Shown here piece by piece: positions 33,195 through 37,289 of a DNA stretch of 64,000 nucleotides. This DNA comes from Gemmatimonadales bacterium. GTDB lineage: Bacteria; Gemmatimonadota; Gemmatimonadetes; Longimicrobiales; Gaopeijiaceae. Within the stretch, counting starts at the first letter, position 1. The number at the start of each line of letters is the position of its first letter. Position numbers and translations under genes: made by a program. A model generated the notes under the pieces. That model saw only the letters and a program-made list of their open reading frames with translations. It was not told where the DNA came from and searched no databases. Location of the stretch: contig CP070829.1 of the NCBI GenBank assembly GCA_020344755.1, forward strand, positions 130,454 to 194,453, in the 5' to 3' direction.

Positions 33195-35471
33195 GTGACC
33201 TCCATCTCCCGTGCATTCCCCCGCCTGACGGCTGGGCTTCTTCCGGCATTGTGCGTGTTCTCCCTCCCCTTGGGGGCGCAGGACGCCGGGGGCGTGCCTA
33301 CCGGCGCAGCGATTCGTGCCGAGGCACCGGTGCAGGTGGACGGCCGCCTGGACGAGGCGGCCTGGAGCCAGGCGCCGGCGCTGGCCGGATTCATCCAGTC
33401 CGAACCCTTCGAGGGGGACCCGGTGACCGAGGAGACCGTGGTCCGTGTCCTCTATGACGACGATGCCGTGTACGTGGGTGCGTGGCTCCTGGACACCGAC
33501 GTGGAGGGACTGGTGTTCGGCGAGACCCGCCGGGACGCCGCCATGGAGGAGACGGACGCGATCCTCTTCGTGCTGGATACCTACCTGGACCGGCAGAACG
33601 GCTACGTCTTCGGGACCACGCCGGCGGGGATCGAGTACGACGGCCAGGTCACCCGGGAGGGGCAGGGGGGCTTCGGAGGTGCCCGGATGATGGCCGGGTC
33701 CATGTCCGGGGTGAACACGAACTGGGATGGTTCCTGGGAGGTGGCGACCCACCGGGATGGGGCCGGGTGGTACGCCGAGTTCCGGATTCCCTTTTCCACC
33801 CTCCGGTACGACCGGGGTGGGGAGCAGCGGTGGGGCTTCAACGTGGTGCGGCGCATCCGGCGGAAGAACGAGGAGGCCTTCTGGTCGCCCGTGCCCCGCC
33901 AGTTCGACCTGTACCGCATCTCCATGGCCGGAACCCTGGAAGGCATCGAGGCGCCCTTCCGTCGGACCGCGCAGGTGACACCGTACGTCCTCGGCTCGAG
34001 CCGATGGGCGTACCTGGACGCCGACGGCGAAGCCTTTCTGGACGGGGCCTCGGAGCGGACCGGCGACTTCGAAGTGGGAGGAGACGCGAAGTTCGCCCTG
34101 AGCCCGTCCCTGACCCTGGATGCCACCGTCAACACCGACTTCGCCCAGGTAGAGGTGGACGATCAGCAGGTGAACCTGACGCGGTTCCGGCTGTTCTTTC
34201 CCGAGAAGCGGCCCTTCTTCCTGGAGAACGCCGGCACCTTCTCGGTGGGTACACCCCAATCCGTGGAGCTCTTCTTCTCCCGGCGCATCGGCATCGAGAG
34301 CGGCTCCGAGGTGCCCATCCTCGGGGGAGGGCGCCTCACCGGACGGGTGGCGGGTCTCAACGTGGGGCTCCTGAACATCCAGACCAAGGAAGTGGAGGGA
34401 GTGGCCCCGGCCAACAACTTCTCCGCGGTCCGCACCTTCCGGGAATGGGAGAACCGGACCCGCCTGGGAGGCACCTTCGTCTCCCGGCTGAACACCCAGG
34501 ACGGCGACGACTACAACCTCACGTACGGGCTCGACGGGCGGTTGGGGATCGGGGAGTCCCTGACCCTGGACGGATACGCGGCCTTCACCGACACGCCTGC
34601 GGACGCCGAGACCCCCGAGGACCGGACCGGTGAGTATGCACTCTCCCTGAGCGCCGAGTACACCAGCCGGGACTGGGAGGGGGGGCTGGCCGTCCGGGAG
34701 GTGGGCGAGGGCTTCAACCCCGAGGTGGGATTCCTCGACCGGGGTGCGTACCGGGTCTACTCGGTCCGGCTCCTGCGGAAGTACCGCTTCGAGGGGGCAG
34801 AGTGGTTCCGGGAGCTGCGGCCCCACGTTTCCCACCGGGAATTCCGGGACCTGGACGGGTTCATCGAGACACGCCTGATCCACGTGGATTCCCACTTCGA
34901 GTTCTCCAACGGGGCCTTCTTCCAGCTCCCCGCCATCAACTTCACCCGGGAGGGTCTGAAGGACGACTTCGAGATCGCCGAGGGGATCGTGGTGCCCGCC
35001 GGGACGTACGACAACGTGGAGTGGGGATTCCGCTACAACACGGACCGGAGCGCTACCCTCTCACTCGAGGGGCGCATCACGATCGGGGGCTTCTACTCCG
35101 GGAACCGAGCCGGATCCGACGCGACCCTGAACGTCCGCCTCGGGGAGACCTTCGTCACGGGTCTCCGGGTGGACTACAACGACGTGAACCTGCCCGAGGG
35201 CGACTTCGCCACCCGGCTGGTGGGCCTGAAGACGGCGTATTCCTTCACCCCGCGCATCTACCTTCAATCCCTGCTGCAGTACAACGATCGAACCGACACC
35301 TTCAGCGCCAACCTCCGTTTCGGGTGGCTGAATACGGCAGGAACCGGACTCTTCATCGTCTACAACGACCTGCGGAACACCGAGACCTTCGACCGGGTTG
35401 GCATCCCGCGGGGCCCGCTGGACCGGACCCTGATCCTGAAGTTCACGCGGCAGTTCAACCTGGGAGGGTAG
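33195..35471 (+). CDS. DUF5916 outer-membrane-type protein with CBM9-like N-terminus
   Basis: 758-aa exported protein. A signal peptide covers residues 1-31 (LTAGLLPALCVFSLPLGAQ). Residues about 40-230 form the CBM9-like domain of this family (VDGRLDEAAWSQAPALAGF, DTYLDRQNGYVFGTTPAG, EFRIPFSTLRY). The rest is DUF5916, rich in alternating strands with DATVNTDFAQVEVDDQQVN and LFFPEKRPFFLENAGTFS, and it ends in a phenylalanine-containing strand as expected for an outer-membrane barrel. The GTG start gives the signal peptide. Its last 56 bp, including the stop, are duplicated 1497 bp downstream. The ligand is unknown; carbohydrate binding is suggested by the domain only. Confidence 0.85.
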   Translation: MTSISRAFPRLTAGLLPALCVFSLPLGAQDAGGVPTGAAIRAEAPVQVDGRLDEAAWSQAPALAGFIQSEPFEGDPVTEETVVRVLYDDDAVYVGAWLLDTDVEGLVFGETRRDAAMEETDAILFVLDTYLDRQNGYVFGTTPAGIEYDGQVTREGQGGFGGARMMAGSMSGVNTNWDGSWEVATHRDGAGWYAEFRIPFSTLRYDRGGEQRWGFNVVRRIRRKNEEAFWSPVPRQFDLYRISMAGTLEGIEAPFRRTAQVTPYVLGSSRWAYLDADGEAFLDGASERTGDFEVGGDAKFALSPSLTLDATVNTDFAQVEVDDQQVNLTRFRLFFPEKRPFFLENAGTFSVGTPQSVELFFSRRIGIESGSEVPILGGGRLTGRVAGLNVGLLNIQTKEVEGVAPANNFSAVRTFREWENRTRLGGTFVSRLNTQDGDDYNLTYGLDGRLGIGESLTLDGYAAFTDTPADAETPEDRTGEYALSLSAEYTSRDWEGGLAVREVGEGFNPEVGFLDRGAYRVYSVRLLRKYRFEGAEWFRELRPHVSHREFRDLDGFIETRLIHVDSHFEFSNGAFFQLPAINFTREGLKDDFEIAEGIVVPAGTYDNVEWGFRYNTDRSATLSLEGRITIGGFYSGNRAGSDATLNVRLGETFVTGLRVDYNDVNLPEGDFATRLVGLKTAYSFTPRIYLQSLLQYNDRTDTFSANLRFGWLNTAGTGLFIVYNDLRNTETFDRVGIPRGPLDRTLILKFTRQFNLGG

Positions 35472-35475
35472 CCCG
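35420..35475 (+). repeat. 56-bp direct repeat, upstream copy
   Basis: This copy covers the last 17 codons of the DUF5916 gene, its TAG stop and 4 bp beyond. It matches 36917-36972 at 55 of 56 positions (G35453 versus A36950). The two copies lie 1497 bp apart, a multiple of three. The repeat also carries the GGGAGGG ribosome-binding sequence used by the next gene. Confidence 0.95.
35462..35468 (+). promoter_or_regulatory. Ribosome binding site supporting an ATC start
   Basis: GGGAGGG is separated by exactly 7 nt from the ATC codon at 35476 that begins the NAD-binding protein's conserved N-terminus. It lies inside the DUF5916 coding end and inside the 56-bp repeat. No ATG, GTG or TTG exists in this frame between the preceding in-frame stop (35437-35439) and the GTG at 35560, which is inside the Rossmann fold. 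Confidence 0.55.
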
Positions 35476-36930
35476 ATCCACGTACTGGTTACCGGCGCCA
35501 CCGGCTACATCGGCGGGCGCCTCGTCCCGCGGCTCCTGGCGGCGGGCCACCAGGTCCGGGTGCTGGTCCGGGACGTGGACCGGCTCGCGGACCGTCCCTG
35601 GACCGACCAGGTGGAGAAGGTGGAGGGGAACGTGCTGGATCCCGGCGTGATGCAGCGCGCCCTGCGGGGGATCGACGCGGCGTACTACCTGATCCACTCC
35701 ATGTGCTCAGGGCCCGACTTCGCACGGCGGGACCGGGAAGCGGCGCGGTCCTTCGCCGAGGAGGCCGGGCACCTCAAGCAGGTGATCTATCTGGGGGGGA
35801 TCCTACCGGACGAGACGACGGTGCGGAACTCGAAGCATCTCCGCTCCCGGGCGGAGGTGGGGGAGATCCTCCGGGAGCGACTCCCCACCACCGAGTTCCG
35901 GGCCGGACCCATCATCGGATCCGGGTCCGCCTCCTTCGAGATGGTGCGCTACCTCACGGAAAGGCTCCCGGCCATGGTGGCACCCCGCTGGATCGAGCAC
36001 GAGGTGCAGCCCATCGCGGTGCGGCACGTCCTGGACTACCTGGTGGCGGTCCTGGGCCGGGAGGACGCGGTGGGGGTCATCGACATCGGGGGCGAGGTCC
36101 TGACCTTCAAGGAGATGATGCTCGGGTACGCCCGGGTGCGCGGTCTGCCCCGGGTCATCATTCCCGTCCCCGTGCTGGCACCGGGGCTGGCCGCCCTCTG
36201 GGTCGGGCTCGTCACCCCGATTCCCAACTGCCTGGCGGTTCCCCTGGTGCGGGGGATGGTGCGGCCCGTCGTCGGGGACCTGACCCGGGCCCGAGCGCTC
36301 TTCCCGGAGATCCATCCCATGGGCTACCAGGAGGCCGTGGAGCTGGCGCTGGACCGGACCCGGGAGGAGAGCGTGATGACCCGGTGGAGCGATGCCGTGG
36401 GCCGGGACGAGACCTTCGAGTTCGAGGACCGGGAAGGCCTGGCCCGGGAGGTGCGCACGCGGCTGGTGGACGCCCCGTCAGAGGCGGTCTTCAAGGCCTT
36501 CACCTCTCTGGGCGGGGACCGGGGCTGGCTGGTCTGGAACTGGGCCTGGAAGGCCCGAGGTCTTCTGGACCAGGTGGTGGGCGGGCCCGGGCTGCGCCGC
36601 GGGCGCAGGGACCCGGCCGAGCTGCGGCGGGGCGACGCCGTGGACTTCTGGCGGGTAGAAGAGATCCAGGAGCCCCGGCTCCTCCGGTTGCGGGCGGAGA
36701 TGAAGCTACCCGGGCGGGCCTGGCTCCAGTTCGAGGCGGAGCCGGAGGACGGGAAGACCCGGCTGGTCCAGGCGGCCCTCTTCGCGCCCCGGGGTTTCCT
36801 CGGTTGGCTCTACTGGTACAGCGTCTACCCGTTCCACCGCCTGATCTTCGACCATCTCATCGACGGCGTGGCGGAGCTGGCGCGGGAGATCACCGAGGCG
36901 GAGCAGGGCGACCCCCGGACCGGACCCTGA
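35476..36930 (+). CDS. NAD(P)-binding epimerase-like protein with DUF2867 domain, apparent ATC start
   Basis: 484-aa protein if translation starts at ATC. Residues 1-300 are an atypical short-chain dehydrogenase/NmrA-like domain: HVLVTGATGYIGGRLVPRLL with the GxxGxxG motif at residues 7-13, then DAAYYLIHSM and FRAGPIIGSGSASFEMVRYL. The last 150 residues are DUF2867/SRPBCC-like (EVRTRLVDAPSEAVFKAF, LFAPRGFLGWLYWYSVYPFH). The first standard start (GTG at 35560) would remove the cofactor motif. Its final codons (..RTGP) and stop lie in the downstream copy of the 56-bp repeat, so both gene ends abut the repeat. It may be an inserted or rearranged gene. Function beyond cofactor binding is unknown. 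Confidence 0.78.
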   Translation: MHVLVTGATGYIGGRLVPRLLAAGHQVRVLVRDVDRLADRPWTDQVEKVEGNVLDPGVMQRALRGIDAAYYLIHSMCSGPDFARRDREAARSFAEEAGHLKQVIYLGGILPDETTVRNSKHLRSRAEVGEILRERLPTTEFRAGPIIGSGSASFEMVRYLTERLPAMVAPRWIEHEVQPIAVRHVLDYLVAVLGREDAVGVIDIGGEVLTFKEMMLGYARVRGLPRVIIPVPVLAPGLAALWVGLVTPIPNCLAVPLVRGMVRPVVGDLTRARALFPEIHPMGYQEAVELALDRTREESVMTRWSDAVGRDETFEFEDREGLAREVRTRLVDAPSEAVFKAFTSLGGDRGWLVWNWAWKARGLLDQVVGGPGLRRGRRDPAELRRGDAVDFWRVEEIQEPRLLRLRAEMKLPGRAWLQFEAEPEDGKTRLVQAALFAPRGFLGWLYWYSVYPFHRLIFDHLIDGVAELAREITEAEQGDPRTGP

Positions 36931-36972
36931 TCCTGAAGTTCACGCGGCAATTCAACCTGGGAGGGTAGCCCG
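36917..36972 (+). repeat. 56-bp direct repeat, downstream copy
   Basis: Near-identical copy of 35420-35475. Here it follows the NAD-binding gene, whose TGA stop (36928-36930) is inside the repeat in a different frame. Read in the DUF5916 frame it still encodes the same C-terminal peptide (LILKFTRQFNLGG) and stop, but with no DUF5916 sequence in front of it. Confidence 0.95.
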
Positions 36973-37001: not shown

Positions 37002-37289
37002 TCAGGCGAAGCGCCACTCCTTCCAGCGGAGTCCCACGCCCGTCTGCCCCTGGTCCGGTGAGACCCGGGTCACGGACCCCGTTCCGGTCACCCGCCTCAC
37101 CTCGTTGGCCGCCCGGGGGAAGAAGATCTCGACGGGCAGGTCCGCACCCTCGTCGAAGGGCTGATCACACACGGCGTAGAGACCGCTGGAGCTCAGGTTC
37201 CTCGACTCGGCGCGGATGCCGGCCAGGGTGACCACGAGCCGCAACTCGTAGCGGTGGGCACCGCGCCGGTCGGGTTGTTGGGATTCCAT
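37002..37289 (-). CDS. PilZ-domain protein
   Basis: 95-aa stand-alone PilZ domain, a family that often binds cyclic di-GMP. The start RRGAHRYELRLVV corresponds to the RxxxR arm and NLSSSGLYAV to the D/NxSxxG motif, here with Asn in place of the usual Asp. FFPRAANEVRRVTGTGSVTRV and GVGLRW complete the barrel. Cytoplasmic. The Asn substitution is tolerated in some family members but leaves nucleotide binding uncertain. It is convergent with the repeat-flanked gene and 103 bp downstream of the M14 pair on the same strand. Confidence 0.85.
   Translation of the reverse strand: MESQQPDRRGAHRYELRLVVTLAGIRAESRNLSSSGLYAVCDQPFDEGADLPVEIFFPRAANEVRRVTGTGSVTRVSPDQGQTGVGLRWKEWRFA

Follow-up and report, generated by a model that had tools for sequence, protein, structure and literature searches.

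An apparent ATC start codon and a Shine-Dalgarno-like site from a duplicated gene tail in a Gemmatimonadales NAD(P)-binding/DUF2867 gene

Three studies, each drawn on here in excerpt, describe the closest known systems. In E. coli and Streptomyces, infC begins at a near-cognate codon (ATC in Streptomyces) and is repressed by IF3, and the GTC start of Streptomyces sigR is under IF3 control as well (PMC5472188). A near-cognate start codon is also reported for infC of S. aureus, where ccpN (AUA) and cvfC1 (AUU) have extended Shine-Dalgarno sequences and, in poor medium, reach about 10% of the AUG level (PMC13009471). These precedents from infC, ccpN and cvfC1 make initiation at ATC plausible and lead us to expect it to be weak. 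Translational coupling is described as needing overlaps or very short distances between genes, and mostly overlaps (PMC10666635). Outside infC, the literature that we surveyed contains few confirmed near-cognate starts, annotation rules are blind to them, and our literature search found no near-cognate-start study for the lineage considered below.

The present genome, from a Gemmatimonadales bacterium (GCA_020344755.1), carries two infC genes (L106 at G000:C1:2432254 and L107 at G000:C1:2037199), whose likely starts are ATC and ATA. In one, AAGGAGG is followed at 8 nt by ATC; in the second, CGGAGGG precedes ATA. Among the infC loci of this genome and its relatives, 30 of 31 have an ATC, ATT or ATA codon after a Shine-Dalgarno-like 4-mer, and 25 of 31 are without ATG, GTG or TTG in the 15 codons upstream. 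For two loci of this set (L126 and L134) the codon scored was an internal ATC, and the likely start lies a few codons further upstream; L113 gave no match. An earlier note on this DNA had called ATC and ATT starts rare in bacteria; rare they are, but to judge from these infC loci the lineage can probably initiate at near-cognate codons.

The gene under study lies in a window of 64,000 nucleotides (the whole stretch of DNA that was analysed; contig CP070829.1, positions 130,454 to 194,453, forward strand), behind a DUF5916/CBM9-like gene (33195..35471, + strand). Domain matches and alignment identify it as the gene of an NAD(P)-binding (NAD_binding_10/NmrA) plus DUF2867 protein (35476..36930, + strand; 484 aa if read from the ATC), which we call the SDR gene. 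A small gene in the open reading frame list (37002..37289, - strand), presumably PilZ-like, converges on its 3' side. The junction reads, on the + strand, GGGAGGG (35462-35468), a Shine-Dalgarno-like site that codes for the last Gly-Gly of DUF5916; TAG (35469-35471), the DUF5916 stop codon in both the sequence and the open reading frame list; CCCG; and ATC (35476-35478), the start codon proposed from the sequence, the homologue alignment and a coding-score scan. The codons CAC GTA CTG GTT ACC GGC GCC ACC GGC TAC ATC GGC GGG follow, and the N-terminus predicted from the ATC is (M)HVLVTGATGYIGGR.

The earlier note had placed this ATC 7 nt after GGGAGGG, and the sequence bears it out exactly; the codon also stands 4 nt after the DUF5916 stop, and GGAGG ends 8 nt before it. 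The ATC, a candidate near-cognate (ATH) start, has a Shine-Dalgarno sequence at suitable spacing, an arrangement (GGAGG ending 5-10 nt upstream) that occurs by our chance estimate at 3.3% of random + strand positions in the window. Nor is a usable canonical start present at the homologous N-terminus. In the SDR frame, stop codons stand at 35431-35433 and 35437-35439; the open stretch runs from 35440 to the TGA at 36928-36930. Sequence and open reading frame list agree with the earlier claim that it holds no ATG, GTG or TTG before the GTG at 35560-35562 (+ strand; residue 29), which is 28 codons past the ATC and beyond the TGATGYIGG glycine motif. Predicted RNA folding around the start shows local structure that is not unusual (z +1.2 to +1.6) and a site that is not unusually buried; a weak predicted hairpin takes in part of the Shine-Dalgarno-like site, which counts against use of the ATC. 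The 16S 3' end with its anti-Shine-Dalgarno sequence was not found in the 16S locus fetched for this purpose. A frameshift fusion with DUF5916 was also considered and rejected: nothing upstream of 35440 offers the SDR frame an open path, and by reasoning the two proteins seem unlikely partners.

Comparison with homologues locates the start at the same codon. N-termini were compared at 80 distinct loci, the SDR gene included, with 17 same-place copies or partial distant matches left out; one locus was unreadable at its N-terminus, which leaves 78 other evaluable loci, or 79 with the SDR gene. All 78 have a canonical start at the homologous codon or nearby: 56 exactly at the ATC-equivalent codon (40 ATG, 16 GTG), 21 upstream by no more than 40 codons, and one within residues 2-4. 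The ATC is thus the exact homologous start position and gives the N-terminus that the earlier note expected. Close homologues, which the note had suggested inspecting for an ATG at this place, do carry one: all five genus mates, three of which read ATG CAC or ATG CAT, and both nearest sisters in the protein tree (G108 and G095). Conservation of the start codon itself, which would be supporting evidence only, is not seen, the relatives using ATG or GTG.

One relative, L091 (G130:C181), was considered as an independent ATC start and rejected: it reads ATC CAG GTA at the homologous codon but has a TTG 15 codons upstream. The same locus lends itself to another account of the origin of the ATC, and of its origin only, in which an ancestor had an N-terminal extension like that of L091, so that the ATC was an ordinary isoleucine codon inside the gene, and the true start has since been removed. 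Upstream starts in 21 of the 80 loci would fit such a history. Against it stands the ATG that the two sisters and the five genus mates all have as their start at the homologous codon, and we consider this account distinctly unlikely; it does not exclude use of the ATC at present.

The protein read from the ATC has both parts of the two-domain NAD(P)-binding/DUF2867 family above cut-off: NAD_binding_10/NmrA in its N-terminal part (NAD_binding_10, 50.8 bits, cut-off 27.2) and DUF2867 in its C-terminal part (116 bits, cut-off 27; residues 326-459). Of the 95 alignment columns without variation among 50 relatives it keeps all 95 (17 loci, seven distant ones among them, were left out of this alignment), and its 484 codons hold no stop or frameshift. 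In a tree of 58 proteins, built after ten loci (same-place copies, partial matches) and anything below 400 aa had been dropped, the SDR gene groups, with support of 99/97, with G108 and G095, which belong to other genera of the family, and stands apart from its genus mates, a placement suggestive of lateral transfer or of an old paralogue. Its terminal branch (0.38) is similar to those of the two sisters (0.32 and 0.45).

The coding signal begins at this ATC as well. A codon-usage coding-score scan covered 464 kb (the window and 20 stretches of the same genome) and 308 called genes that have a stop upstream in the same frame; the SDR gene ranks third of the 308 for coding signal ahead of the first canonical start, and its score maximum begins exactly at 35476. 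Rank 1 is L159 18753-19106 (118 codons), ranks 2 and 4 cross 100-N spacers, and rank 5, judged by eye, likely has its ATG later. Translation could instead begin at GTG 35560 (or at CTG 35485) and yield a shortened protein, of which perhaps the DUF2867 part alone works. This GTG is the first canonical start in frame, and the DUF2867 match would remain; such a start would, however, cost the protein the glycine motif that binds the nucleotide and is conserved across the family, has no GGAGG just upstream and lies 28 codons behind the point at which the coding signal starts. We regard it as highly improbable.

Two copies of a 56-nt repeat bracket the SDR gene. Copy 1 (35420..35475, + strand) comprises the DUF5916 tail plus 4 nt, and copy 2 (36917..36972, + strand) holds the SDR stop codon, TGA 36928-36930. 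The copies are identical at 55 of 56 positions, with 33 and 22 nt of unbroken identity on the two sides of a single mismatch at 35453; exact runs of this kind with a mismatch between them do not favour a k-mer overlap misassembly as the source of the repeat. A search of the genome record returned these two as its only strong copies, and so gave no sign of a mobile element. Because relatives, whose DUF5916 C-terminus is conserved, show a matching C-terminal pattern, copy 1 is the native DUF5916 end, and the claim that the Shine-Dalgarno site is part of the repeat holds. With the ribosome site in copy 1 and the stop in copy 2, the SDR frame therefore draws both signals from the repeat; the earlier note did not mention that the stop lies there. 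The last residues of the SDR protein are likewise encoded by copy 2. The duplication may have arisen either by insertion with target duplication or by a copied tail being set behind an existing gene. The ATC, in turn, may have come from the repeat at the joining, or may reflect a later G-to-C change in a native ATG; copy 2 reads GTC where the junction at copy 1 has ATC. The DUF5916, SDR and downstream M14 genes were never adjacent in 20 fetched relative regions, and therefore no empty site was found in these relatives.

Only 1 of 56 positions differs between the copies, and the gene and the repeat may have been joined so recently that an uninterrupted frame is no proof of selection. The gene could thus be dead or dying: the joining would have cost it its start, no product would be made any longer, and the ATC and the Shine-Dalgarno-like site would be leftovers. 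That the SDR gene is the only one of 79 evaluable homologues without a canonical start, and that it is single-copy in the genome, would fit this view, as would the apparent youth of the duplication; a newly dead copy would still keep its conserved residues. The uninterrupted 484 codons with every invariant residue kept, the closure of the frame by the stop in copy 2 and a Shine-Dalgarno-like site whose correct spacing has a 3.3% chance expectation all speak against loss of function, which we judge unlikely though deserving of weight.

It is also conceivable that the draft sequence carries a base error and that the true codon is ATG. The record is a single one of 4.1 Mb in which a 400-kb sample contains 25 100-N spacers, which crowd closer together near the end of the record, where the pieces measure about 3 kb (G000, L159-L178), so it looks like contigs joined in order of falling length. 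A search for a second strain found none, and the sequence is that of one fragmented draft genome. The ATG CAC or ATG CAT of three of the five genus mates adds to this concern, ATG CAC being one base from ATC CAC. The window holds no N, though, and the second repeat copy likewise has C at the base equivalent to 35478 (GTC). Consensus errors seldom take the form of a single G-to-C substitution. Taken together, an error at this base seems to us very unlikely.

We propose, with a probability of roughly 0.6, that the locus holds an intact NAD(P)-binding/DUF2867 gene whose ATG has been lost and whose translation most likely begins at the ATC at 35476, as judged from sequence. The 30S subunit would be placed by GGGAGGG, the coding sequence of the last two DUF5916 residues. 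Because the DUF5916 stop lies between GGGAGGG and the ATC, ribosomes that finish DUF5916 may also feed the SDR start; the gap of +4 nt is short but is no overlap, the usual case of coupling in the excerpted account (PMC10666635). We would expect weak initiation that IF3 limits, as it does at infC. The ribosome site and the stop alike derive from the 56-nt duplication of the DUF5916 tail around the gene.

A more far-reaching possibility, which we offer tentatively and hold as doubtful, is that a coding sequence without start or stop moved into the tail of another gene, and that it received a ribosome site, an ATC start and a stop from the duplicated tail. The enzyme would thereby have come under IF3-type near-cognate control in one step, with the geometry of the genome's own infC. 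The locus is in any case a compact candidate in which an ATC copy can be set directly against relatives with ATG, and it suggests a route by which the end of a neighbouring gene could rescue a gene that has lost its signals.

Among known systems, infC with its AUU, AUC or AUA start resembles the SDR gene in combining a near-cognate ATH codon with a strong Shine-Dalgarno sequence, and codon and spacing match those of the genome's own infC; whereas the infC start is conserved and autoregulatory, the SDR ATC is found in one genome, with ATG or GTG in its relatives. Streptomyces sigR likewise has a non-canonical start outside infC, and annotation rules miss both; sigR is a regulatory gene whose start is conserved and experimentally tested (PMC5472188), in contrast to the start predicted here. 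The S. aureus genes ccpN and cvfC1 share an ATH start, a strong Shine-Dalgarno sequence and low output with what we propose for the SDR gene, but theirs are conserved and mapped by ribosome profiling, and the excerpted text makes no mention of a site borrowed from a duplicated gene tail (PMC13009471). As in termination-reinitiation coupling, the DUF5916 stop and the proposed SDR start lie a few nucleotides apart and the ribosome site is inside the upstream gene; the commonest coupled pairs, as excerpted, overlap by 4 or 1 nt (PMC10666635), whereas the proposed SDR start is non-canonical and set off by a gap of +4 nt. The kind of start is thus already known from infC, sigR, ccpN and cvfC1; what is unusual is the way in which its signals were acquired.
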